Below, in pieces: positions 6,099 through 21,942 of a stretch of 40,016 nt of DNA (position 1 is its first letter; each line of letters starts with the position of its first letter). The notes below the pieces were generated by a model. It worked only from the letters and a program-made list of their open reading frames with translations. It did not search any database and was not told the origin of the DNA. Location of the stretch: assembly GCA_019894955.1 (NCBI GenBank), contig JAGXNQ010000007.1, positions 1 to 40,016 on the forward strand, given 5' to 3'. Made by a program: the position numbers and the translations under genes. The DNA is from Promethearchaeota archaeon (lineage in GTDB: Archaea > Asgardarchaeota > Lokiarchaeia > Sigyniarchaeales > SOKP01).

Positions 6099-9062
6099 TT
6101 AAAATGTCTGACGAAATATATCCATTATTGATTGTCTACTCAACCGTATCAGTATAAAATACATTCCTATAACACCTATAGCAATTGATATTGTAAATAC
6201 TCTGAAAATCGAGTCAATTGGCAAGATAAAATTAGCAGGAAGTTCTGTCATTAAAGCCATATTAGTTTCAAGCAAATAACCACAATATGTGCCAATAAAG
6301 GTTCCCATTGTTCCCGCTGACAACAATAATAAAAGACTTTCGATTAGGAACATGTTACGAACATTTCTTGTTTTCATACCCATACTTCTCAAAATCCCAA
6401 TTTCAAATTTTCGTTCAAGCATGATTGCAAACATATTACTAATTAATCCAAAAATTGATATCACTACAGCAAATAAAAGGATAATCTCCATCAAACTACT
6501 TTGGCGTTCCATCATTCCGACCATAAAGTTTACCTTAGAAATCGCATCATCAATTGAAAAACTTCTGTCTTTATAAGTCGTACTTATATCATCCATCGTT
6601 GATTTAATATTTTCTTCGGAGTTTTCAATTAAATTAATAAATATTTTATCAACTATCATATTTGGTTCTCCAGGATTATCGACCTTCATCAAATTCATAT
6701 AATTATCTACCGATACCAAGATTCCGCCACCAAAAGCAGAACCTTCAGAGCTTCTGAAATTCCAATATCCTGGCATTCCTCCACAGATCCCGACAACTTT
6801 AAAAAGTGAAATATTCCCTGGATCATTTTGTATTTTAGGGTTGTAGAAATTAAGCCGAATATATTCACCTACATCATCAATCCCTAAAACTGATGCTATC
6901 GATTTCGCGATAATACATGTATTATTATTTTGGAGCATTTGACTAAAGGAATAATTAAAACCACTATTGGGACTGCTCCAAATTATGAGTTCTTTTTCAA
7001 CAAGATTAGTAAAATCTTCATCAATTCCAATAAATCCTGCTTCTATTTCATTAAAATTAGAGATGTCCGCAGCTGTTACTTGAAATTTAGACTCTGCTTG
7101 TCTAGCATAAAATTCAAATATATTAACGAATGCCTGTTCACTAGAATCATCTCCGAATCCTATACCCCCTTCTGTTGATGAAAAAATAGTCGAAATTATA
7201 GCAGTTAGATCGTAAGTATTAAAGAGAGATATTGCAAGTGATTTAATTCCTGGGAATGATTTTAATTCTTCTACCATTTCAAGTGTCAGAGCACTATCTG
7301 AATCATAACCTTGGTTTGCTAACACTAAATCTGAACCATACTGGAGTTTCAAGCTTGTAGACATGGTTGCTGATTGCATTTCAGTAACACTTGTAATAAA
7401 AAAAATAAAACTAAATGATATTGAAAACATCACAATGGTGCTAGTATTTCTTCTTGTATATCTCTTTAACGAAATCTTAATAATATTCCTATATTTTCTT
7501 ATAAATGGAGAAATAATGCTTAAAAAAACCCGTTGAATTATTGGTATTATACCTACTGAAGCAAATACAAGTCCAAGTAAAATTGCTGCTAACATTCCTA
7601 TAAATAAACCAGCAATCATCATGATTCCCCCAGTTACCATTATTCTAGGTAATAAGATAAATACAATCATTCCTAGAGTAGATATTGATATTCCGATTAA
7701 AAAATTCTTTATATTTATACTACCTTCTTTTTTTACCTCCCAACCCTCTTCTTTTGTATGAAAAGGAGTAATGGATTTTATCAAATCTTGACTAGAGGCT
7801 TTTAATGCAGGTATTAATGCAATTGAAAGCGAAGTAATTGATCCAATGGATAGTTCTAAAATAATAGTTTCTGGATTAATAACAAATTCTTCCATTACAA
7901 AAGGAAAATCCGTCATACTGAAAAGTAAACTGACAATAGAGGGGGTGAAAATAACTCCTATTATAACCCCTATTATGGATCCAAAGACACCTAAAAGTAA
8001 ACCTTCAAACAAAACCATTTTTATTGGGACACCCTTTTTACCTCCTACAACCCGCATTATACCAAACTCTCTCATTCTTTCTTCTATAGAAGTAGATAAA
8101 ATTGAATTGATTAGGATACCTGTTATTAATATAGAAAGGATTGTAATAAACCAAAAGATGATTGTCATCATCATCAAAGTAAATTCTCCACTAGATAATT
8201 CCTCTAACTTTGGCATTGTAACTGAATATGTACTTATTTCTAACCTTTGTTGAATTCGTGTTCCTATTTCGCGTAAACGAGCCGTGGTTTCCTCCAAATT
8301 ACTTACATCATATATAAATTGTGGATTTTCAATTGTCCCCACTAGAAAATTAATTTGATCTGATCTTTGAAAAAAATCCTGTGCCTGATCTAGGTTAACT
8401 AAAATCAAGCTCGTTTCAAATTGGAAAAATTTAAGATCTTGTTCGCATACCATAATAACTTCTAAATCCAAAGTATATTGTTGATATTCTAAGTGAATAA
8501 AATCTCCTATTGAGACATTTAACAATTCAGCTACGTTCCATAAAATGACACATTCTCCATCATCAGGTTCTTCATTATAAATCTCACCAGTTTCAATTCC
8601 GTTATCATCCACAATCTTTAAATCACCCATCTTTCCATTGGTCGCTTCTTGAATAAAATCTATCCCATATAATTGAAGTGAACCATTCGAATTTGAATTA
8701 GTTGAGAAGGTTTTAACTATGGACATAATTCTTGGAAAGAATTCATCAACTCCAGAGATATCATAAAGTTCGTTTTGAATAAGAGATTCTTCAAAATAAG
8801 GATCATAGGTAATATCTGTTTGTGGAATTTTAGTAATCATTATATCAGCACTTCCAGTTGTATTCGTCACCGAATCAATATAATTATAACTCATGGTGTC
8901 GTTAACCATTCCAATTGCGGTTAATAAAATTATTGAAATTGCGATTCCACCAATACCAAAAAATGCTTTAGCTTTACTACGCTTAAGATCAATCCAAGAG
9001 TTCTTAATAAATTGTAAATTAATCTTCAGCTGTAATCGGTACCAAAAATCTCTTATATTCAA
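6099..9062 (-). CDS. FtsX/MacB-type ABC permease, duplicated (987 aa)
   Basis: N-terminal TM plus large extracytoplasmic domain, EERMREFGIMRVVGGKKG FtsX motif, second copy ending ERKFEIGILRSMGMKTRNVRNMFLIE. Paralog of the 17768-20740 product. Confidence 0.93.
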   Translation of the reverse strand: MNIRDFWYRLQLKINLQFIKNSWIDLKRSKAKAFFGIGGIAISIILLTAIGMVNDTMSYNYIDSVTNTTGSADIMITKIPQTDITYDPYFEESLIQNELYDISGVDEFFPRIMSIVKTFSTNSNSNGSLQLYGIDFIQEATNGKMGDLKIVDDNGIETGEIYNEEPDDGECVILWNVAELLNVSIGDFIHLEYQQYTLDLEVIMVCEQDLKFFQFETSLILVNLDQAQDFFQRSDQINFLVGTIENPQFIYDVSNLEETTARLREIGTRIQQRLEISTYSVTMPKLEELSSGEFTLMMMTIIFWFITILSILITGILINSILSTSIEERMREFGIMRVVGGKKGVPIKMVLFEGLLLGVFGSIIGVIIGVIFTPSIVSLLFSMTDFPFVMEEFVINPETIILELSIGSITSLSIALIPALKASSQDLIKSITPFHTKEEGWEVKKEGSINIKNFLIGISISTLGMIVFILLPRIMVTGGIMMIAGLFIGMLAAILLGLVFASVGIIPIIQRVFLSIISPFIRKYRNIIKISLKRYTRRNTSTIVMFSISFSFIFFITSVTEMQSATMSTSLKLQYGSDLVLANQGYDSDSALTLEMVEELKSFPGIKSLAISLFNTYDLTAIISTIFSSTEGGIGFGDDSSEQAFVNIFEFYARQAESKFQVTAADISNFNEIEAGFIGIDEDFTNLVEKELIIWSSPNSGFNYSFSQMLQNNNTCIIAKSIASVLGIDDVGEYIRLNFYNPKIQNDPGNISLFKVVGICGGMPGYWNFRSSEGSAFGGGILVSVDNYMNLMKVDNPGEPNMIVDKIFINLIENSEENIKSTMDDISTTYKDRSFSIDDAISKVNFMVGMMERQSSLMEIILLFAVVISIFGLISNMFAIMLERKFEIGILRSMGMKTRNVRNMFLIESLLLLLSAGTMGTFIGTYCGYLLETNMALMTELPANFILPIDSIFRVFTISIAIGVIGMYFILIRLSRQSIMDIFRQTF

Positions 9063-9088
9063 TTTCTTTCTATTCTTGTTTATTAATT

Positions 9089-12000
9089 CTAATCTAAAAC
9101 ACTAAATTTTTGATCATTTTTTTTATACTTCTTTAAAATTTTTCCTTCTTTTGCCAATAAATCCTTGATTTCTTGTTTTTCTCTTCTAATTAATCTTACT
9201 CCTTCACAGCTTTTATTCTTACAGAAATAATTTTCTCCAGGCTCGTCTTTAAAATACCATTTTCCACAATTCAAACAGTTGTATGCTGCAAAAATTTGAT
9301 CGTGCTCGCAATTTGGACATATATAATTATAGTTTTTTGTAGAAAACCATGATTTGCAATATCGGCAATGTACTATCATCGGTCTAGATAATTCATCCAA
9401 TTCCATCACTTCGATCCTTTTTACTATTTGATCCTTATCAATAGATTTTAGGCGTACTTTTTCAGCATTATTACTTTTAAGGCGTTTATTCCATGATTTT
9501 CTTTTAATAAATACTACTAAACCAATAACGAATGCTATTCCTAAGATAATTAACCATGGTCCAAATGTTTTGAAATTAAATATTCCATTTTGAATAATTA
9601 TAGTATTTGATTCTTCAATCCAATTTCCTTCTTTATCATAAGCGATGATTTTTATGTGGTGTATACCATCATTATAGAGTGTTGTATCCCACTCATATAC
9701 TAATAAGTTAGTATCAATATCATATGATAGAGTGTTTCTATTAATAATTTGCCCATCAATATATAGATATATTTTATCTAAATCTAATTCAATGTTATCA
9801 GTTATATTTACTTCTATAGTGTATGTAGAAGTTAATACTTGGTCATTAATTGGAGTTAAAATTACAACTTCGGGAGATTTAAAATCAGTATTTTGATCAT
9901 ATCCAATATATATATTAGATAATAACCAACCGTACCCCAGTCCTATTGTGTTATCATTCGACTCCAAAACAAACATTATCATTACAATCTCATCTGAATA
10001 TTGTGACAGATTTATAGACTCATTACCTGAAAGGTCATCGTCATCGTAGAAATATTCTTTTAGTATATCCCAGTCCTCTCCATAATTTGTGGAGATTAAA
10101 ACGCTACATTTATCCAATTGATCTTCTTCCATATAAAATTCGTTTTGAAGTGAAATCTCAAATGAATATTGGAGAAATGTAATATATTCATCCCTTAGTT
10201 GAATAGGTTTTGTAATTAATTTAATATCCCAATCGGAACCATATCCTTGTTCAAATCCCCCATAACTCATACCAGTCCCTCCATATAAATAGTTTTGTCC
10301 CAATCTCTCTATAGGGTGCCAAGTATTATCTCTTTTTAACCAGGCTGTAGGATCTTTTGGAGTTGGTTCCCCAGCTGCATAGAAGTCATTTAAATTTTCA
10401 TTAGAAAATTCATAACCAATCAACTTTTCACTATTAATGAGATTGTAATCTAACTCAATAGGAAATTCGAAAGTGAACATCTCATTATTTTGATTGTACC
10501 AGGGTGATTGATAAATAAATTTACCATCAGAGACATGAAATCTAAATGATTGATTGTTATAATTTCCTAAAATTAAATATTTTTGAAATGTGATTCCATC
10601 TCCTTCATTATATTGAATGCTCACATTCCAATCACCATAACTATTGATCATTGAATGGTTTTCATTTCCAATTTCTAAATAAATATATTCAGGATAATTA
10701 TTATCTAAATCGAAATATTTACAATTAATTAAGAATTGTTCATAAATAGAACCCTCGGTAGTTAGGACATCTCTACTTATATTAAAATCAATGAGTGGAG
10801 CGTTAACATTTGTGTAATTTATTAAAGAAAAGTAATCCAGCATTAAACCTTTATAATTAATAGGATCATACTGATCATCAACGATAGTTATAAATTGGAA
10901 TTGGACAAAATTACCAATATATTGGGTTAAATTTATGCTTTCAATGAACCATTCACTTTCTTCATTTGTATATGTTTTGATTGTTGTCCAACCGGTCCAA
11001 TTGAGATTTGCTTGCAAATATATATAATCTCCAACATTTATACTGGTTCTCAATCCAAAATTCGCAAAAGGTTGGGTTTGATTTTCATTTAATCTTGTCA
11101 AATTAAATAATGGGCTGACTAATGTTCCATTAGGATAAGGATTTGATAATATGTATGGCTGATATGTATAGTTCGTTGGAAAATGATGGTCTCTTCCAAA
11201 ATAAACACTATTCCATTGAGTATCATATAATAATGAACGGTTGTCAATTTGATTTGATTGATTTAAAATATTCCATCCTGTTCCAATAAAAGTCCAATTA
11301 TTCCAACCAGTATTAAAATATTGAGAATAAGGTAATTGCTCGCTATCATCGGGAAATTCTAATGTAATATTTAAATAACCTAATCCTGGAAACCTTACTT
11401 TATTCAAACCATCACTCCCTACGAAAAAATAGTGATATACACCCGATGTAGGAAATTCTAAATAATCAGTTCTAAATATGGCTCCATCCGTGTAATTGTT
11501 ATCAAATTCATACATTTGAGACATTGAATAATTTATTGATGTTTCCAATATCGATACATATACTTCTTGAGGAGGAACATTCGAAGTATCCATGTCAAAA
11601 TAGTCAATATAAAAACGATAATTATCTAATGTGTAATTCTTATTTGGATTATATCCCAAATATTCTTGACTGGAAAGGATTGTAGTATTTTTTTGACCCC
11701 CTACATAAGTTACTAGAGGAATATGCAATTCTGGAGCGAAGACATTATCAACCGTTGAAATATTTAAAGTAAAAGTGCTCTCACCACTGATTGCTTTTAC
11801 CACTATCACACATTCCGTTTGATTTTTTTTAGGTGTAAAATAGAGTGAGTCAAAATCACCATACCACTTTCTAGTTGTTTCGAGCAATATTGGTTCTCCA
11901 TTCATTTTTGAAGAATTAGCAAATAAAAATAAATCTAAATTTGAATTTCCATCCACATTATTTAATTCAAAGATGTATTGTGTATCTTTGTTGAGTTTTA

Positions 12001-13849
12001 TTCTACGAGCAAAAGCATGTTTAGCTAAAGGATTTTCTTCTGAACTTGTTACTGAACCTTGAACAGGAGAATTGACTGAAACATAATTTATTAAAGCTTC
12101 AGTAGCCGCTTGAATATTAACACGCCCATATCCTTCATGTACATCTTTAATCGTTGAAGGAATTCCCACATAAGAACCTGGTGAATATTCGCTTTCATCA
12201 ATTCCCGTTGAAGGATTATCTTCCCTATCAAGATTGGTTTCTGAAGCAGTCATTAAAAGAATCGCTTTTAAGGATTTTGCTAATTGTGAAGTATTTTGTA
12301 AACTCCAAGTACTCCAGTCATTCCATCTCGCATCAATTAATATATTAATCGCAGCGGCAATTATCGCTGCTGAGATGGATGTTCCTTGAGAACCAGTAAC
12401 TTCATCCGAATTTGCTTTAGCTCCTAATATATTCCGATGACCTGGTAGTTGACTTCCTCCTGGGGCGAGAATATCCGGCTTTACCGTATTTTCATTAATA
12501 GATTCTCCCATACTGCTATAACTTGCTACTTGGTCTTGATCATTAGTTGCCCCTACAACAATCGCATTTTCACTCAGTGCTAATTTGTTGAGAGGATTTG
12601 ATCCTTCGACACCAGAATTTCCCGCTGCTATAACAACAACAATGCCATTATCAGCGACTTCATTAATTGCCGTAGTTACTGCTTTTACGTCATTACCTAG
12701 AGTCCCAATACTTAAACAAGCAGAAACTATCTTGTTGGTGTCTTTGTTTTGTAATACACTCCCTAATGCTGAGATCAAATCAGAGGTATACCCATAACCA
12801 GAATTATTCACAATTTTATAAGAGTGGATATTGGAAGCATTTGCTACTCCTGTGAAGTGATTGAAATTGGGAATATAGTTTTCTGGATAAGTAGAAATAT
12901 TTACATTATAATAGAATTGGGGATTTTTATTTAGTTGTTTGTGATATTTCATGTACAAGTCATAGATTCCCGTTCCATATTGCGAAGTTTGTTGAGAAAA
13001 CTGGTAATTAGTACTTTGCATTAAGTTATTTGTTGAATTTACTACCGTTGAATTGAAATATAACTCAAACCAAACATCATCTATTCCAGATTCCTCCAAT
13101 TGCCAATTTGAAGTAACAATAATATCTGAACTTAATTGAGTCGCATTAAAAGACACGATTTTGAAAGTGTAATTTGTAGAAGGAATATATTCCTCAAAGA
13201 GATCTAAATGAGAATAATTCGCTTCTAACAGTATTGATGATGGATCTATACTATTATATGGATCTATACCTGTACCTGCTATTATTGAGGATATCAAGGT
13301 GCCGTGTCCATTACCATCAGAAATAGGTGCTGTGTCAACGAAATTTTCCCAACCTGAAATTTTACCCTGCAAGAACTGTTGATTGGAATCAATTCCAGTA
13401 TCTAAAACCGCAATCGAAGAACCAGTATCACCATTAAATCCATTCGTTTCCCAAGTCGAATTAACAGCCCCTGATTGATAGGAAGCATAATTTAATTGAG
13501 TATCTATAATTTCATCTAATTCTAGGTTAATATCAATGAATTCTGAAGCAAATATAGAAATGTTTTCGGAGGGTAAAGCCCCTGCGAAACCAGATATTCC
13601 ATTAAATATATTGTTCCATTCTTCGTTTACTTTTAATTGACCACCATAATATTCAAATCTATTTTTAACAATTGCATTAAAAGTTGATTGATTGAAAAAT
13701 ACAATAAGATCCGGCATATCAGAGTTTGATAAATGAAGATTACTTTTTTCAGTGTCAGAAAAAGTTTGATATGGAATAAGAAATTGAAATCCTGAAATTG
13801 AAGATATAAAAAGGATTATGAAGAGACTCACTTTATATTTCACATTCAC
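9089..13849 (-). CDS. Membrane-anchored subtilisin-like (S8) serine protease with C-terminal cytoplasmic zinc ribbons (1586 aa)
   Basis: Catalytic triad SSIAVLDTGID / DGNGHGTLISSIIAGTG / TGSQGTSISAAIIAA, AAGNSG oxyanion motif; N-terminal hydrophobic signal; C-terminal TM GPWLIILGIAFVIGLVVFI followed by CRYC...CPNC and CLNC...CKNKSC. Confidence 0.95.
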   Translation of the reverse strand: MNVKYKVSLFIILFISSISGFQFLIPYQTFSDTEKSNLHLSNSDMPDLIVFFNQSTFNAIVKNRFEYYGGQLKVNEEWNNIFNGISGFAGALPSENISIFASEFIDINLELDEIIDTQLNYASYQSGAVNSTWETNGFNGDTGSSIAVLDTGIDSNQQFLQGKISGWENFVDTAPISDGNGHGTLISSIIAGTGIDPYNSIDPSSILLEANYSHLDLFEEYIPSTNYTFKIVSFNATQLSSDIIVTSNWQLEESGIDDVWFELYFNSTVVNSTNNLMQSTNYQFSQQTSQYGTGIYDLYMKYHKQLNKNPQFYYNVNISTYPENYIPNFNHFTGVANASNIHSYKIVNNSGYGYTSDLISALGSVLQNKDTNKIVSACLSIGTLGNDVKAVTTAINEVADNGIVVVIAAGNSGVEGSNPLNKLALSENAIVVGATNDQDQVASYSSMGESINENTVKPDILAPGGSQLPGHRNILGAKANSDEVTGSQGTSISAAIIAAAINILIDARWNDWSTWSLQNTSQLAKSLKAILLMTASETNLDREDNPSTGIDESEYSPGSYVGIPSTIKDVHEGYGRVNIQAATEALINYVSVNSPVQGSVTSSEENPLAKHAFARRIKLNKDTQYIFELNNVDGNSNLDLFLFANSSKMNGEPILLETTRKWYGDFDSLYFTPKKNQTECVIVVKAISGESTFTLNISTVDNVFAPELHIPLVTYVGGQKNTTILSSQEYLGYNPNKNYTLDNYRFYIDYFDMDTSNVPPQEVYVSILETSINYSMSQMYEFDNNYTDGAIFRTDYLEFPTSGVYHYFFVGSDGLNKVRFPGLGYLNITLEFPDDSEQLPYSQYFNTGWNNWTFIGTGWNILNQSNQIDNRSLLYDTQWNSVYFGRDHHFPTNYTYQPYILSNPYPNGTLVSPLFNLTRLNENQTQPFANFGLRTSINVGDYIYLQANLNWTGWTTIKTYTNEESEWFIESINLTQYIGNFVQFQFITIVDDQYDPINYKGLMLDYFSLINYTNVNAPLIDFNISRDVLTTEGSIYEQFLINCKYFDLDNNYPEYIYLEIGNENHSMINSYGDWNVSIQYNEGDGITFQKYLILGNYNNQSFRFHVSDGKFIYQSPWYNQNNEMFTFEFPIELDYNLINSEKLIGYEFSNENLNDFYAAGEPTPKDPTAWLKRDNTWHPIERLGQNYLYGGTGMSYGGFEQGYGSDWDIKLITKPIQLRDEYITFLQYSFEISLQNEFYMEEDQLDKCSVLISTNYGEDWDILKEYFYDDDDLSGNESINLSQYSDEIVMIMFVLESNDNTIGLGYGWLLSNIYIGYDQNTDFKSPEVVILTPINDQVLTSTYTIEVNITDNIELDLDKIYLYIDGQIINRNTLSYDIDTNLLVYEWDTTLYNDGIHHIKIIAYDKEGNWIEESNTIIIQNGIFNFKTFGPWLIILGIAFVIGLVVFIKRKSWNKRLKSNNAEKVRLKSIDKDQIVKRIEVMELDELSRPMIVHCRYCKSWFSTKNYNYICPNCEHDQIFAAYNCLNCGKWYFKDEPGENYFCKNKSCEGVRLIRREKQEIKDLLAKEGKILKKYKKNDQKFSVLD

Positions 13850-16800
13850 TGATCTTGTTCTCCTCCTGGTATTGGTGATAATTTTTCTTTTATCCCTTTC
13901 CTCTTATCTTCATAAATTTTATGGAAATCATCTTTTAGTGTCATCTCTACTTTTAGAATCGCATCTACTCCTTTTGTTCTAAATAGTAAATTCTCGTTTC
14001 TTGAAATTTCATATTTTTTAACATTATATCTCCTAGATTGATACAGATAAATTACCAAAACCAAAAGAGCTCCTACTGTTGGTACTATGATAAATAAATT
14101 CTGAGTTTGAACTGGAATGACAATTTTGACATCCACTATGTTTGAGGATATTTTTATTTGATGAAGATAATATAATTGTATATGAGAAGGATTTAATTTT
14201 ACAAGATTTTGACTCATAGCTTTTATTTTATAAGTAAACGTTTTGTTTTCCCCTGGATTGATTGAATCGATTTCATTTATTAATTTTCCTTCGACTAAAG
14301 CAAAATTTATTCTCGTAAAACTTGTTATATCGCTTAAACTCAAACCTTTAACACAGATATTACCTGTATTTACAACTACTAAAGTTATTTCAAGAATATC
14401 TCCAATTTCAACTTGATTCCTATCAATTTTTTTAATGATAGTTAGATTGATATTTCCTAAAATTATTGGTGAAGATTGAGAAATCTGTACTAAACGATTG
14501 TTATGACTATCAAGATAATTTATTGGAGGATAATAATAACCATTCCAATCTAATTTTTTCATTGTTATATTATAAGATAAATTTTCACCAAATTGTATAT
14601 TTGTAATATTGTATATTTCATTTTGAATAATTCTTAAAGCACCAAAATTATCTTGGTGATTTATTAGTAAGTTAGAAATATTTAATCCACTAGGGCTATT
14701 ATTTTGAACGTTTATTGTGATATTGAATAATTCATCGATCATTGGATAATCAATAATGGGACTATAGAGAAATTGAATTGTATTAAGGAATGGTTTTGTT
14801 TTCTCATAATCAATTCTTGTTGAGTAAAATACCTCGTTTGTACGTGTTGTAATTGTATAGGAATCTAAATTCTCTATTTTCTCCGTATTATTGTAATTAA
14901 GTTGTAAAGAATTAATTGTACCCGTATTTGGAGTATAAAATTCCATTTGAATTGTTCCCTGTTCCAAGGGTGCTAATTCATCTAAATAGAAGTATAAATG
15001 ACTATCAAATAAAGTGAAATTAATACAATCGTTCATTATCCCTGGAATAAGCATGGAAAAATTAAGATCGTAAGCAATTTGAGAACCAACGTTTTTAAAA
15101 TTTAAAGTATAAGTATTAACTTCGCCTATTTTAGTACTATATTTTGTTAAATCCGAAAAAATTATGATTGATGCCATATCGTAAGTACTAAGTGATATAG
15201 AATTAGAATGTCGTACATATTGGACTTCTCCACTACTGGTACTGTATATAACTCTAGATCTTGAAGCATCATAATGATTTATGTCACGATAGGACAATTC
15301 TACTTCTAAATAATTTAAGCTAATATTGAAAGAGCTTGAATTTGAACCAATCAACCTAAATACTATTGTATGATTTATTCGAGATGGAGAATCGAAAAGC
15401 CACTCCAAAGAAGCTTTATTTTTAATAAAAGAATAACGGGTAGTACTATTTTCTTGGGACTCAAAATAAGGAGATATATCTTCAAATTGCCCGCTTGAGA
15501 AATTAAAGATTTCTAATGCCAACGTATTTTGTTGGTCCGTTAAATTGATAAGAATTGAAACTCGTTCTAACGATTTATTATAATAATTAATGTGACTAAT
15601 ATTTTGGAATAAAAATTGGACTTCAATTTCATGATGATCGATAAATTTCTCTTGCGAAGTAATATTCCAACTTTCGTTGTCAAGTTTTATAGCCATACTA
15701 GGATCTGTTCCATCTGATGAAGAACCTGAGATAATTGCGGGAAGTTCTGGAAAGGAATCATCAATAAGGAAACTATAATTATAAAATGGAGTAAAAGTAT
15801 CAGATCCTTCGATTGAAAAGTTCGAATATATGTATGAAATCTTTTCTCCTGGTTTTAAAATCCAATTTTCTTCATTCCAAATGCTGAAAGCATTAGTAAA
15901 TGTGTCTTTTAGATCTTCAGAAGTGACCCCTAATATTGATAGAGCATTAATCAACTGAGGATATCCAATGCTTATGATATCAATAACATTACCCATGTTG
16001 TCGTTGTAAGGAAAATAGTTCGATAGATTGTTCATATCTGGAAAGTAAGTGTCGACCAATCCTGATCCTAAACTATCAAGATAGAATATTCTTGGGTTCT
16101 CATCAAAATTAAAAAAATCTTCTAAGGAATCATATTGACTTGGATATTCTACTCTTACAACATCCCATATAGCATCCATGAGTTCACCACCTAAAGGACC
16201 ACCAATTAATGTAAACATCTCATCAAGTTCAAGTGGAAATAAGGTTGGGATTCCCCAAGCTGTTTCATTACCTACATTTTCTACAGTTATGTTAAAGTCA
16301 TAATCATTATATACTCCATATGAAGCATTTCCGCTAACTAAATTCTTGGTTATTTTTAAATTTGGTTCAGAATTTGAAATTTTATAGTCTATAATAAAAT
16401 TAGAAATAGGATTGAATATTCCAGTCATGATACCAGGGATACCTTGGAAACCTAGTTGAGGGAGAAAATTAATAACATCCAAGGGATCATCTAAATTAAC
16501 TGGTGAAACATAACTTTTTTTTATTCCTCCATTGTCAACCCATAACAAATCAAATGAATAATCTTGAAGTGTTTGAAGATCAACATCTAAATCTGCATAA
16601 TATAATAATAAACCAATCTGTTCTAATAAATATTCATACAATTGAAAATAATTTGGAGTACTTTGTATTATATCTGAGCATAAGATTGATACATCGATAT
16701 TACTCAAAAAAGCTCCTGTTAAAGCAATAAATATTTTATCACTAGGCTTTAACGCATCTCCTTTATAGCCCATAGCATCCCAAAGATTAAAAGAATATTC

Positions 16801-17751
16801 ATTATCTCCAATTTTTTGAATTCCATTATCAGCTCCTTCATATTGGATCATTAAACTAGTATAATGTGATTCATTTGATAATGAAAGACCTCCAAAAAGG
16901 GTAGAAAAATCTTCAAGGCCAGTTTGATTTGTATCTTGAGTATCGTTCAAACCCGAAAATCCATCAAATATATTTTCTTCTTCAAGATTGTCCAAATAAC
17001 TGAGATCTAATGAATCTAAATTAAAATTAACTTGATTTGTCAAATCGTATATATTCTTATCAAGAATATCGAGAGAATTTACGAGGAAATAAGTTGATGA
17101 AAGGTGATAATTCTGATTATATCCTTCTGATGTTATCCGATCGATATTTAGAGCACTCCAATATCCATCCTTTGGAAGGTTTAACGTGATTTCATTGATA
17201 TAAACATTCCAATCAGGAACGTGTCCTATAAAAGGATAATAATTTGGTTCAGAAACATTCACAAGAATGAGATCAATTTGAAATTTTCTTCTAATAATTT
17301 CAAGAGCTCTTTCAGCTCTAAAATCAGCCTCAGTTTCACTTAAATCTTCATCATAATACAAAAAACCGGAAAATCCATTAAAGCTCATTTCATATTGTCC
17401 GCTAAATCCGTCTTCAGTAAGTAACCTTGGAAATATTGAAGGTGTAATGCCATTTGATGCACTAATAAGTACATTACACTTATAGAATGCCGGATCTCTC
17501 GTATCAAATTGAGATAAAATACTTGTGTCATTACTAAAAAGAGATTGTTTTATAATCGATTTATTTCCTGCTACATAGGCATCGATATTTTCAGAATATA
17601 GGTCTGTTCCAGCGATATCTGATAATTTCAACTCTTTTATATCTTCTTCATTCTGCGATTCATTTTTGATTGGATCATCAATATTAAAACTAAGAGGGAT
17701 GCTTAAACAAATATAAATGATAAAAAATAAACCTATTTTCCACCTTTTCAT
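13846..17751 (-). CDS. Large membrane-anchored surface protein with CARDB/DUF11-like beta domains (1301 aa)
   Basis: N-terminal signal IGLFFIIYICLSIPLSF; CARDB/DUF11-like segments (LTIIKKIDRNQVEIGDILEITLVVVNTGN); C-terminal TM LFIIVPTVGALLVLVIYLY plus ~65-aa tail; ATGA overlap with subtilase. Confidence 0.85.
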   Translation of the reverse strand: MKRWKIGLFFIIYICLSIPLSFNIDDPIKNESQNEEDIKELKLSDIAGTDLYSENIDAYVAGNKSIIKQSLFSNDTSILSQFDTRDPAFYKCNVLISASNGITPSIFPRLLTEDGFSGQYEMSFNGFSGFLYYDEDLSETEADFRAERALEIIRRKFQIDLILVNVSEPNYYPFIGHVPDWNVYINEITLNLPKDGYWSALNIDRITSEGYNQNYHLSSTYFLVNSLDILDKNIYDLTNQVNFNLDSLDLSYLDNLEEENIFDGFSGLNDTQDTNQTGLEDFSTLFGGLSLSNESHYTSLMIQYEGADNGIQKIGDNEYSFNLWDAMGYKGDALKPSDKIFIALTGAFLSNIDVSILCSDIIQSTPNYFQLYEYLLEQIGLLLYYADLDVDLQTLQDYSFDLLWVDNGGIKKSYVSPVNLDDPLDVINFLPQLGFQGIPGIMTGIFNPISNFIIDYKISNSEPNLKITKNLVSGNASYGVYNDYDFNITVENVGNETAWGIPTLFPLELDEMFTLIGGPLGGELMDAIWDVVRVEYPSQYDSLEDFFNFDENPRIFYLDSLGSGLVDTYFPDMNNLSNYFPYNDNMGNVIDIISIGYPQLINALSILGVTSEDLKDTFTNAFSIWNEENWILKPGEKISYIYSNFSIEGSDTFTPFYNYSFLIDDSFPELPAIISGSSSDGTDPSMAIKLDNESWNITSQEKFIDHHEIEVQFLFQNISHINYYNKSLERVSILINLTDQQNTLALEIFNFSSGQFEDISPYFESQENSTTRYSFIKNKASLEWLFDSPSRINHTIVFRLIGSNSSSFNISLNYLEVELSYRDINHYDASRSRVIYSTSSGEVQYVRHSNSISLSTYDMASIIIFSDLTKYSTKIGEVNTYTLNFKNVGSQIAYDLNFSMLIPGIMNDCINFTLFDSHLYFYLDELAPLEQGTIQMEFYTPNTGTINSLQLNYNNTEKIENLDSYTITTRTNEVFYSTRIDYEKTKPFLNTIQFLYSPIIDYPMIDELFNITINVQNNSPSGLNISNLLINHQDNFGALRIIQNEIYNITNIQFGENLSYNITMKKLDWNGYYYPPINYLDSHNNRLVQISQSSPIILGNINLTIIKKIDRNQVEIGDILEITLVVVNTGNICVKGLSLSDITSFTRINFALVEGKLINEIDSINPGENKTFTYKIKAMSQNLVKLNPSHIQLYYLHQIKISSNIVDVKIVIPVQTQNLFIIVPTVGALLVLVIYLYQSRRYNVKKYEISRNENLLFRTKGVDAILKVEMTLKDDFHKIYEDKRKGIKEKLSPIPGGEQDQ

Positions 17752-17767
17752 CAGAATTTCATTCCTC

Positions 17768-20740
17768 TCACATTGTTTCCCTATAAATTTCTATTATTTT
17801 TTTCTTACGTATTTTTCTCAATAAGAATATCATCGCTATTATGATGAATACTGTTGCTATAAAAAATATGGATAAAGCCTCTGAAAGGGGAAAATTTGTA
17901 GGTGTAGGCAAATCCCCTAATTCATTTAGAGATGAAGCTAGTAATAAACCTGTTGTATATCCAATAAGCACACCTACAGATCCACTACTGAACATAATAA
18001 TAAGAGCTTCTATAGTAAAAAGTCGATTTATCTGCCTACCTTTTAAACCTAAAGTTCTAATAATACCAATATCTTTTTTTCTCTCAATAATTGAGGAATA
18101 AGATGAAGATATTAAACCAAATAAACAGATAATGATAGTAGCATCAAGTGTTATGGTAAAAAAGATATCTAATATCGAAAAATATGATTGTTCTTGGTTT
18201 ATTGAATTTTTGAGATTATTCAAGTCAAAATCAAATATACCTCTATAATTGTCCCATATAATTGTTTCAATTGATTGGGTGTTATTTAATCCAATCTCCG
18301 TTAGTTTTATAAAGATTTTATCTAAATACGGAATGGGGGGAATATCCATTAAAGTCATGTATGTTTGATGATTAATCATTACACCCCCTCCTAAAGCAGC
18401 ACCACTTGATCTACTAAATACAGAAGAGAAACCAGGCATTGCTGTTGCTATTCCAACAATCCTAAAAGGATAAATTTCGGATTCATCCCCTCTATTAACT
18501 ACAATTCTAATTAAATCACCTAAATAGAGATTTAAATTAACAGATATAGCTTCTGATATTATGCAAGTGTAAGGACTCTCAAGAATAAAAAGATTATTAA
18601 ATGAATCAACTATATTTCCACCAGTAAAATCAATGTAACTGGTGTCTATAGTTGATGGGTACTCTTCATCAATCCCAATTAATGAAATTTCTATCGTTGA
18701 TAACCCGGCATAATCTCCAATTTCTGCCGTAAATTCGTTTCCCTCATCAGAGTATATTTGAGTTAAATGAAAAGGACTAGCAATTATAGTTGATATCTTC
18801 TCTATTCCCTCAATTTGTAATAAGGTATCTCCAAACTCACTTGTAAGAATTCTATTCGGATTAACAGAAAAATCGTCAGCAAGTAAATTAATAGGTACTC
18901 CAGAGAGCCCAAAACCTCCTCCAGATTCTATTTCTTCAGGATCATCCCATCCAATTGTTTCAATAACTAAATCAGATCCTAAATCCAAGGTCGTTTCTAT
19001 TTCTCCTTGATCAGATAAGAATGTAAATGCTCCAGAGACGAATATAACAAAAGAAAATGTAAATGCAAACATTAAAATTGTGCTTGAGTTCCTTCGAGCA
19101 TAACGAAACACGAATATTTTATATATCGGAGATAATTTTCTGGAGATTAATCTAAAAACTTGAATAAAAAAATGAAGTATGACTGGCATTAATCCTAAAC
19201 CTGCAAGAGTAGTGCCAATTAAAAATAAAATAAGCAATGCAATAAGAATTCCCGCCATTAATGCGAGATCTCCCGTAATCATAATACGAGGTAATACCAT
19301 TATTATAAATAAACCATTTGCTGTTAAAATTAATCCTACAAGGATAATTTTATAATTAACCGAGGCTCTTTTTTGAAGATGATATAGGGTGTCTTCATGC
19401 CTATAAGGATGAATAGATTCAATTAATTGAAGTTTCATTACTTTCATTGCAGGAGAAATGCTTACGATTAACCCCACACCTATACCAATTACATATGCAA
19501 GAAAAACGGAGGTCATTGTAATGGAGTAAGTTATGTTACCAGCTAGACCTGGAATTGTTCCTGAAATGATTACATCTGCAAAGGGTAAAATAACAAATTG
19601 CGTAAGTAATTGTGCCCCTATGATCCCAAAAATTGTCCCAAAATTACATAAAAGAAAGCCTTGAACTATAACTATCATCAGGTTATGGTTTTTTGTTGCA
19701 CCAAGCGTTCGGAAAATTCCGAATTCTCGTATTCTTTCCTCCACAGAAGTCTTCAAAATACCATTGATGAGCACTCCAGATATAAGCATCGCGATCATGG
19801 ATACAAATACGAAAATAATCGTAATACCTACACTTAACCATTCTGAAAATCCTAGCACCTCTAATTTTGGCAAATCTAAGAAATATTCATTAATTCCTAA
19901 TTCCATTTGAATTTCCCCTGCGAGATCTTTAACCCTGTTTTCAGTTCCCTTTAGATCTCTTACATCATAGAATTCTCCCGCATTTTTAATTGACAGGATT
20001 AAATTATTACATTTTCCCCCAAAAGTTGCTTGACCAAATAAATCATAAAGAGTGTCAATATCAACAACAACTAATGGTGTATTTGCATATCGAATAGGCC
20101 ACTTTTGCTGGAAGTCGAATATCTTTGCTATTGTGAAATTGTGTGTTTTATAATGAGTCACGTTTCCATGTCGTATTCTCATAGCTATTTCAATCGTGTC
20201 ATTTTCAACATATTTAATGTCTTGACTAAACTTGTATAAGATTGCGCATTCATTGACAGATAACTCATTTATTTCTAAAAGAATATTACTTTCTGGTTCA
20301 ACAAATACACCAAAACCTAATGTTTTTTCTAAACTGATATCAATTCCTGATACTAATGCATTTACGCTTTCATTCGTCAATTCTTGAGTTTCTAATCCTT
20401 GAGAAACGTAAACATTACCATATAACTCCATTCTCGGGATAATCCCTTCAATTTGAGGGAAACTACCTTCGATTTTACTAGCTAATGGATTGAATTCAAA
20501 ATAATCAGAACGGTTGCTTGGTTCTCCATTATAATGTCGGACTGAAACTACAATATCTTGATTGCCCGCATCAATGCTCAAATATTGAGCGAACGTTACA
20601 GAAATGGAGTCCGATAAAAAAAGAACTATTGCTAAGAGCGCAATTGAGAAAAATACACCTAAAATTCCAATTGCAGTTCTAACTTTTTGTCTCCCAAGGT
20701 CCTTAAAAGCATATTTGAAAATTATTTTAAAATTCAGCAT
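17768..20740 (-). CDS. FtsX/MacB-type ABC permease, duplicated (990 aa)
   Basis: VEERIREFGIFRTLGATKNHN and ERKKDIGIIRTLGLKGRQINRLFTIE FtsX motifs; two TM/extracytoplasmic halves. Confidence 0.94.
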   Translation of the reverse strand: MLNFKIIFKYAFKDLGRQKVRTAIGILGVFFSIALLAIVLFLSDSISVTFAQYLSIDAGNQDIVVSVRHYNGEPSNRSDYFEFNPLASKIEGSFPQIEGIIPRMELYGNVYVSQGLETQELTNESVNALVSGIDISLEKTLGFGVFVEPESNILLEINELSVNECAILYKFSQDIKYVENDTIEIAMRIRHGNVTHYKTHNFTIAKIFDFQQKWPIRYANTPLVVVDIDTLYDLFGQATFGGKCNNLILSIKNAGEFYDVRDLKGTENRVKDLAGEIQMELGINEYFLDLPKLEVLGFSEWLSVGITIIFVFVSMIAMLISGVLINGILKTSVEERIREFGIFRTLGATKNHNLMIVIVQGFLLCNFGTIFGIIGAQLLTQFVILPFADVIISGTIPGLAGNITYSITMTSVFLAYVIGIGVGLIVSISPAMKVMKLQLIESIHPYRHEDTLYHLQKRASVNYKIILVGLILTANGLFIIMVLPRIMITGDLALMAGILIALLILFLIGTTLAGLGLMPVILHFFIQVFRLISRKLSPIYKIFVFRYARRNSSTILMFAFTFSFVIFVSGAFTFLSDQGEIETTLDLGSDLVIETIGWDDPEEIESGGGFGLSGVPINLLADDFSVNPNRILTSEFGDTLLQIEGIEKISTIIASPFHLTQIYSDEGNEFTAEIGDYAGLSTIEISLIGIDEEYPSTIDTSYIDFTGGNIVDSFNNLFILESPYTCIISEAISVNLNLYLGDLIRIVVNRGDESEIYPFRIVGIATAMPGFSSVFSRSSGAALGGGVMINHQTYMTLMDIPPIPYLDKIFIKLTEIGLNNTQSIETIIWDNYRGIFDFDLNNLKNSINQEQSYFSILDIFFTITLDATIIICLFGLISSSYSSIIERKKDIGIIRTLGLKGRQINRLFTIEALIIMFSSGSVGVLIGYTTGLLLASSLNELGDLPTPTNFPLSEALSIFFIATVFIIIAMIFLLRKIRKKKIIEIYRETM

Positions 20741-20754
20741 AAATTTTTATCCAG

Positions 20755-21942
20755 TTAAAAAAGATTTAATACGTTTCCATCGAGATTACCATTTAGGTTA
20801 TTTTCTTTAATTAATTCTTGTAAAATATCGTTAAAATGTTCGGGTAAATTTAAGAGAATAGCACTGGGGATACTATTTTTAATATCACCTACATCTATTG
20901 CAGTTTTTCCTTGGTTTGAAAAAAGATATCTAAATATCATGCTTTTACATTTTTCTTTGTTCATATCTGCCTCTAGTTTCCTATTAAATTCCATTTGCTG
21001 CGTTTCTTTTAACCCCCCAACTTTACCTTCCGTGGTTAACTTTCCATCTTTCATGTGAAATACGCGATTTGCAAATTCAGAAACAGCAGCATCATGGCTT
21101 ACAGCTATAAATGTTGCTCCTCTACGATTTAAATCTCTTAATAGATTTAATATCATGACCCCCGTTTTACTATCAAGATCTCCTGTTGGTTCATCCAACA
21201 CGCATAACGCAGGATCATTTGCAAACGCTCGTGCTATAGCCACTCTTTGTTGTTCTCCCCCGCTTAACTCTGAGGGGGTGTGATGTGATCTATCCTCTAA
21301 TTCTACTAATCTTAATAAATCTAAACCACGTTTCCTCTTACCTCTTCGACTTAATTTTCCCGAGAAATGTAAAGGAACTAAAACATTCTCCAAAGCGGTC
21401 ATTTGTGGTAATAAATTATAAAATTGAAAAACGAATCCTATATTTTCTCTTCTGATATCTGCTAAATCATTATCTTTAAGAGTTGCAATATTTCTTCCTT
21501 CAAGGAAAATCTTACCTCGAGTAGGAGTATCAAGCCCTCCGATTAAATTCAAAAGCGTTGTTTTGCCACTGCCACTAGGACCCATAATATCGATAAAATC
21601 TCCTTTATCAATGGTTAAATCAACACCACGTAATGCAGCTACCGCAGTCGTTCCTAGCAAATATGTCTTGTGAAGGTTTTCCACCACAATTAAATGTTCA
21701 TAATCTTTATCTACATCTTTTTGATGTTTATCTTCTAATTTTACTCGATTTCTTTCCTCTTGTGAAAGCAATAGTATTTCAGTTTTTTTCTTCTTAATTT
21801 CTTCTTTCTTTTTCTTTTCTTGCCAAGTGTTAAAATTTTTGCTGACTTTTCCTTTCCAAATAGCAAGGTTCCCCGTTTCCTCTTCGTATTGTTCCATTTC
21901 GGGTGTTTTAATAATATGAGCATCTGGCATTAAAATTACCAT
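20755..21942 (-). CDS. ABC transporter ATP-binding protein, MacB/LolD type with N- and C-terminal extensions
   Basis: Walker A GPSGSGKTT, Q-loop QFYNLLPQMTALENV, signature LSGGEQQRVAIARA, Walker B ALCVLDEPTGDLD. Confidence 0.97.
   Translation of the reverse strand: MVILMPDAHIIKTPEMEQYEEETGNLAIWKGKVSKNFNTWQEKKKKEEIKKKKTEILLLSQEERNRVKLEDKHQKDVDKDYEHLIVVENLHKTYLLGTTAVAALRGVDLTIDKGDFIDIMGPSGSGKTTLLNLIGGLDTPTRGKIFLEGRNIATLKDNDLADIRRENIGFVFQFYNLLPQMTALENVLVPLHFSGKLSRRGKRKRGLDLLRLVELEDRSHHTPSELSGGEQQRVAIARAFANDPALCVLDEPTGDLDSKTGVMILNLLRDLNRRGATFIAVSHDAAVSEFANRVFHMKDGKLTTEGKVGGLKETQQMEFNRKLEADMNKEKCKSMIFRYLFSNQGKTAIDVGDIKNSIPSAILLNLPEHFNDILQELIKENNLNGNLDGNVLNLF

Follow-up and report, generated by a model that had tools for sequence, protein, structure and literature searches.

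The 40,016-nucleotide stretch of archaeal DNA analyzed here (the window) encodes a large surface subtilase that continues past its C-terminal transmembrane (TM) helix into a tail with two cysteine-rich motifs. On which side of the membrane does this tail lie, and what could a zinc-binding module contribute to a protease there? No known prokaryotes are closer to eukaryotes than the Asgard archaea, and little has been learned of how they act on their surroundings.

The subtilase and its tail

By domain content and catalytic triad, the window protein is assigned to the S8 family, with proteolysis as a prediction only. In Pfam scans, Peptidase_S8 scored 121.7 bits against a curated cut-off of 21.8, and a Big_7 Ig-like domain was matched at residues 1326 to 1400; the triad residues D150, H182, and S491 are all present. 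The protein is the sole S8 member in its Lokiarchaeia genome. It begins with a signal-peptide-like helix, continues as a sequon-rich ectodomain, and has a single C-terminal TM helix. This helix and the motifs CRYC...CPNC and CLNC...CKNKSC were found in one minus-strand open reading frame, where the original prediction had located them (Table 1).

Table 1. Coordinates of features in the window (minus-strand entries) and in related loci
Feature	Coordinates	Strand	Details
ABC ATPase, LolD/MacB/FtsE kind, with N- and C-terminal extensions	20755..21942	minus	395 aa; ABC_tran 6.5e-35
Duplicated FtsX/MacB-type permease B	17768..20740	minus	990 aa; FtsX 3.2e-25, MacB_PCD 2.6e-6, two stretches each
Type I surface protein	13846..17751	minus	1301 aa; membrane-proximal TRAP_beta/DUF11-like domain, TM, short basic tail
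S8 subtilase, type I membrane protein	9089..13849	minus	1586 aa, GTG start; Pfam Peptidase_S8 E=4.8e-35
Predicted C-terminal TM helix, aa 1430-1448	9506..9562	minus	hydropathy 2.64 over 19 aa
Predicted cytoplasmic basic tail	9092..9505	minus	138 aa; sequon density at chance level
Putative zinc ribbon 1 (C1495, C1498, C1511, C1514)	9308..9367	minus	invariant; weak Pfam matches
Putative zinc ribbon 2 (C1525, C1528, C1543, C1548)	9206..9277	minus	invariant; profile match PDB 9fhl_C
Duplicated FtsX/MacB-type permease A	6099..9062	minus	987 aa; FtsX 5.2e-30, MacB_PCD 2.1e-9, two stretches each
VWFA-like genes of family f4	L122 1010-2302; L123 4845-6191; L125 5710-6984		
Candidate stand-alone TRAP-beta	G177:C5:43760-44137; G176:C147:13515-13892; G126:C112:64604-65023; G128:C1:42095-42499		

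The tail had been predicted to be a cytoplasmic double zinc ribbon, and sequence statistics bear this out. Lysine plus arginine averaged 6.6 per 20 residues after the TM helix versus 1.45 before it, and each of the 40 homologs has the excess after the helix. In the ectodomain, the density of N-x-S/T sequons is 3.19 per 100 residues versus 1.55 expected from composition; in the tail it is 0.34 versus 0.33 expected. TM calls and topology statistics were made with a simple hydropathy model, and the charge and sequon statistics agree. Together, charge and sequons place the tail in the cytoplasm, and by these statistics the subtilase shows a type I topology with its ribbon tail on the cytoplasmic side. 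Tail-like double ribbons also occur in other proteins (L104 of genome G159, L105, and L107), and those relatives that lack a predicted membrane segment fit a cytoplasmic module.

A homolog search with the TM helix plus tail as the query, covering 79 genomes of the window's order, returned matches in 53, nearly always one per genome. In dozens of genomes the subtilase homologs are mostly uninterrupted frames of about 1,600 residues; the splitting of homologs into two genes, named at the outset as grounds for dismissing the tail, was not what we found. Since the frames are mostly single and no homolog among 40 lacks any of the eight tail cysteines, a fusion or frameshift artifact is excluded. 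The wider alternative, that the cysteines are extracellular or the tail artifactual, we judge extremely improbable: nothing was found in its favor beyond an N-x-S sequon (CKNKSC) inside ribbon 2 of the window protein, and against it stand the charge asymmetry in every homolog, the chance density of tail sequons, and the single reading frames.

Cysteines are concentrated in the tail. The window subtilase has eight in its 138-residue tail versus four in an ectodomain of about 1,430 residues, and 40 full-length homologs average 5.6 versus 0.36 per 100 residues. Each of the eight is conserved in 40 of 40 full-length homologs, while the four ectodomain cysteines are retained in only 23 to 33 of the 40. 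They are likewise invariant across 26 aligned tails in which the remaining residues vary, a conservation far above that of other tail positions. The tail was further said to turn basic after the ribbons; it does, but it is basic on both sides of them.

From this pattern the tail is read as a tandem C4 zinc-ribbon motif with two conserved knuckle pairs, and zinc binding is predicted. C4 ribbon spacing of this kind is typical for structural zinc. A RING-type cross-brace was ruled out by the spacing of 10 residues from the fourth to the fifth cysteine. The nearest PDB profile match of ribbon 2 was an HVO_2753-like small zinc finger (PDB 9fhl_C; E=0.0015), and ribbon 1 gave subthreshold Pfam matches to the HypA zinc domain and double zinc ribbons; among curated Pfam zinc-ribbon models, HypA, Zn_ribbon_15, and DZR all scored under their cut-offs with the window tail. 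Domain scans of the tail revealed no recognizable DNA-binding or signaling domain above the curated cut-off, and a PHROGs search gave no match. The AF2 model of the tail, built on a shallow alignment (pLDDT 50), contained only the TM helix and two weak beta hairpins, and a Foldseek search with it found no match at E<=0.001. In one homolog (genome G001), the ribbon pair is doubled in tandem, giving 16 cysteines.

The ABC operon and its variants

The subtilase gene is the fourth of five, in the order ATPase, permease B, 1,300-residue protein, subtilase, and permease A, and this order held across the archaeal order at all loci with sufficient flank. In the window, the intergenic gaps from ATPase to permease A are 14, 16, -4, and 26 bp. 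The ATPase matched the NCBIfam LolD model at 5.7e-70, under that model's cut-off, and the NCBIfam matches of permease A (ADOP, LolCE, MacB, and YbbP) were all under cut-off as well. With about 10 hydrophobic or TM segments each by hydropathy count, both permeases are classed as the YbbP/ADOP kind of duplicated permease. By domain content, the ATPase and permeases are a Type VII ABC set (MacB/FtsX superfamily), for which assembly and mechanotransmission are predicted.

The membrane-proximal domain of the 1,301-residue partner (aa 1103 to 1200 in the window) matched TRAP_beta in 18 of 18 homologs (best 2.2e-21) and TRAP-beta in the PDB at 2.4e-4, and the partner is the only TRAP_beta match in the host genome. 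Given its DUF11 similarity, this likeness may be at the level of fold only. Asgard archaea do have TRAP subunits (PMC11417166). The AF2 model of the N-terminal part of the partner reached a pLDDT of 30 on a shallow alignment. Separately, open reading frames of 190 to 220 residues in other Asgard lineages match just the TRAP_beta-like domain plus TM and are candidates for stand-alone TRAP-beta.

Ribbon tail and partner go together. Across the 79 genomes of the order, 50 have both, 2 the tail only, 8 the partner only, and 19 neither (Fisher p 4e-10, with genome relatedness ignored); the contig ends at the locus in both tail-only genomes and in some partner-only genomes. The suggested link to an ABC ATPase was right as to neighborhood, in the form of a conserved five-gene operon. 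Docking to this ATPase is a hypothesis, and the most obvious candidate surface for it, the N-terminal extension of the ATPase, does not track the ribbons. As a general docking site the extension was rejected: it is missing in ribbon-bearing families f3 and f2 and genus g2 and is present in genome G017, which has no subtilase.

Both catalysis and the subtilase itself appear separable from the rest of the system. In three homologs (L052, L053, and L057, from genomes G009, G003, and G002), Asp150 is replaced by Gly, His182 by Gln or Leu, and the Asn of AAGN by Asp, while S491, the TM helix, all eight tail cysteines, and the operon are retained. The three form a single clade (support 100/100), most simply explained by one old, persisting loss of catalysis, and the protease is predicted to be dead. 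Because this predicted-dead clade keeps ribbons and operon, the tail would not serve catalysis alone, and the subtilase itself appears to be retained without catalysis in one clade. Conversely, five genomes in all (G017 and those of family f4) carry the operon without the subtilase, the partner gene being followed directly by permease A; in G017, no S8 match was found anywhere in the genome. Since such operons exist, the ABC core can persist without the subtilase, which is not an obligate subunit.

Two further arrangements are recorded here as observations. Family f4 encodes a VWFA-like protein with six CxxC motifs after permease A, and L104 of genome G159 is a VWFA-like protein that ends in a double ribbon akin to the subtilase tail.

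Ribbon tails on other Asgard proteins

The original prediction had assumed that subtilases normally end outside the cell. This does not hold for long Asgard S8 proteins: among 37 others, picked by length and match strength so that the fractions are not population estimates, 31 have a C-terminal TM helix, and 14 of these 31 have at least two CxxC motifs in the tail. The 14 are 1,239 to 1,411 residues long, distant from the window family, and mostly single ribboned; two that were checked reach the cut-off of Pfam Zn_Ribbon_1. The survey of S8 proteins with TM helix and ribbon covered the Asgard phylum.

This pan-Asgard S8 family of about 1,240 to 1,410 residues resembles the window family in its S8 ectodomain, C-terminal TM helix, cytoplasmic zinc ribbon, and, sometimes, an FtsX-type permease neighbor; it differs in having mostly one C4 ribbon (Zn_Ribbon_1, Pfam PF13240) rather than two, and the two families align only in and around the S8 domain. 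In two other lineages, three genomes place the gene beside an FtsX-type permease. At L191 and L196 (lineage f10) an FtsX-type permease and a MacB-type ATPase come before it, the ABC ATPase being directly adjacent, and at L193 (genome G128) a duplicated MacB/FtsX permease comes after it. Of 10 loci of this family that were inspected, 7 have no FtsX-type ABC neighbor. The L191 protein (8758-12513, minus strand) also has an ABC_transp_aux/IFT52 GIFT-like stretch at aa 620 to 730 of its ectodomain.

In a rough background count over non-S8 type I proteins of the retrieved loci, 3 of 50 had ribbon tails; 34 members of this set are sized like the 1,300-residue partner, and two of the three positives came from ribbon-directed searches. 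Ribbon tails thus occur on type I proteins unrelated to the subtilases: a 340-residue protein with a double-ribbon-like tail in genome G009 (L106 1326-2345, minus strand), which adjoins a 1,187-residue protein with one C-terminal TM helix; a 238-residue protein with a single-ribbon tail in the window's own genome (L140 889-1602; G000:C228 around 4233); and L204. A weak tail match in genome G170 was set aside, as it lies in a protein resembling the DNA polymerase D large subunit, whose zinc ribbon weakly matches the profile.

Searches of the open-access literature turned up no report that zinc-ribbon cytoplasmic tails recur among tethered subtilases of Asgard archaea. Their recurrence is the wider result of this analysis.

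A docking model and its alternatives

As the best reading, we give even credence to a model in which the five Lokiarchaeal proteins form a Type VII ABC membrane system with a tethered surface subtilase, the zinc ribbons acting as its cytoplasmic docking module. One ATPase and two internally duplicated permeases of the MacB/FtsX superfamily would make up the core, and the 1,300-residue tethered protein and the tethered subtilase would be surface subunits held in or beside the ABC complex. As structural zinc modules, the ribbons would hold the subtilase to some partner in the cytoplasm, for which the ABC assembly is the simplest candidate. We infer further that ATP-driven motion of the MacB-like ectodomains (mechanotransmission) might present substrate to the surface subunits or gate them, proteolysis being a usual yet dispensable part of the complex's job. 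In favor of docking are the fixed operon order, tail-partner co-occurrence, the invariant cysteines, the topology statistics, the ribbons kept in the predicted-dead clade, the tandem pair in G001, and the other ribbon-tailed S8 genes beside FtsX-type permeases. Against it are the mostly stand-alone position of those other genes, the few unrelated type I proteins with ribbon tails, core and partner without subtilase in G017 and f4, an ATPase extension that does not follow the ribbons, and the poorly modeled tail. The fuller version, a new kind of Asgard membrane machine in which a Type VII ABC core and its pair of duplicated permeases control two giant tethered surface proteins, one of them the subtilase, by zinc-ribbon docking in the cytoplasm, so that ATP inside gates proteolysis outside, strikes us as doubtful.

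The main rival, a real though lesser possibility, is that such ribbons serve Asgard type I surface proteins as a generic tail module in the cytoplasm, used for sorting, retention, or tethering to translocon, ribosome, or cytoskeleton, with nothing specific to the ABC system. Ribbon tails on 14 of 37 long Asgard S8 proteins outside the operon, mostly lacking ABC neighbors, are what it would predict, as are the tails of L106, L204, and L140, the double-ribbon relatives without predicted membrane segments (L104, L105, and L107), and the resemblance of ribbon 2 to a small HVO_2753-like zinc finger. Yet the window-type double ribbon is fixed in a single operon context across the order, and its eight cysteines outlast the other tail residues. 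That the ribbons instead sense redox state or zinc to regulate surface proteolysis from inside, or form a signaling tail freed by regulated proteolysis, would suit their position, metal-binding motif, and basic flanks; the spacing typical of structural zinc, the survival of the ribbons in the predicted-dead clade, and the lack of a DNA-binding or signaling domain above curated cut-offs make this improbable. It is quite improbable, too, that the subtilase works independently at the surface as a nutritional protease and is merely cotranscribed with the ABC genes. Extracellular peptidases are widespread in Lokiarchaeota, some of which catabolize protein (PMC9123169), and the operon does persist without the subtilase gene; however, the gene occupies an invariable slot between partner and permease A at all loci with flank, and the protein was kept after a whole clade lost catalysis.

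Among known systems, the docking model has its closest counterparts in two. YbbAP-TesA of Escherichia coli joins a Type VII ABC transporter to a periplasmic serine hydrolase, 2:1:1, with the hydrolase carried on the permease outer domains (PMC12646458). It shares with the window operon the broad ATPase group, a duplicated permease with two MacB-like ectodomains and 10 TM segments, and an extracytoplasmic serine hydrolase (PMC12646458). TesA, however, is a periplasmic esterase without a tether, and its gene belongs to a neighboring divergent operon, whereas the hydrolase here is a 1,600-residue S8 protease with its own TM helix and ribbon tail, encoded alongside a pair of duplicated permeases and another giant tethered protein. 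With permease A scoring 14 bits on NCBIfam YbbP (cut-off 999) and an S8 hydrolase, the operon falls outside YbbAP-TesA. Mycosin MycP of ESX type VII secretion is a membrane-anchored S8 protease from outside the Asgard archaea and, as the docking model proposes for the window subtilase, is tied to a membrane complex, which it stabilizes with its protease activity being dispensable; the portion of the source consulted mentions no ribbon tail (PMC5082899). The mycosin model TIGR03921 was the best NCBIfam match of the window subtilase, and mycosin identity was rejected at 62.4 bits against a cut-off of 278.75.

Two other comparisons are more distant. FtsEX-EnvC/PcsB/RipC are Type VII ABC systems that steer extracellular hydrolysis via mechanotransmission; their targets are peptidoglycan hydrolases, and they differ in having no known tethered S8 protease and one FtsX domain per chain. 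Kex2, furin, and S1P are eukaryotic type I membrane subtilases whose topology, an S8 ectodomain, one TM helix, and a cytoplasmic tail, matches that predicted for the window subtilase. We know of no ribbon tails among them, and a Pfam scan of the window subtilase gave no match to the kexin/furin P domain (P_proprotein).

The naturally predicted-dead clade and the protease-less operons separate a structural role from enzyme activity without mutagenesis. If the docking model is true, a surface protease fixed in an ABC operon and linked through a zinc module to the cell interior would offer one of few examples of proteolysis at the surface coupled to energy use, and the cell may hold or control proteolysis at its surface from inside.
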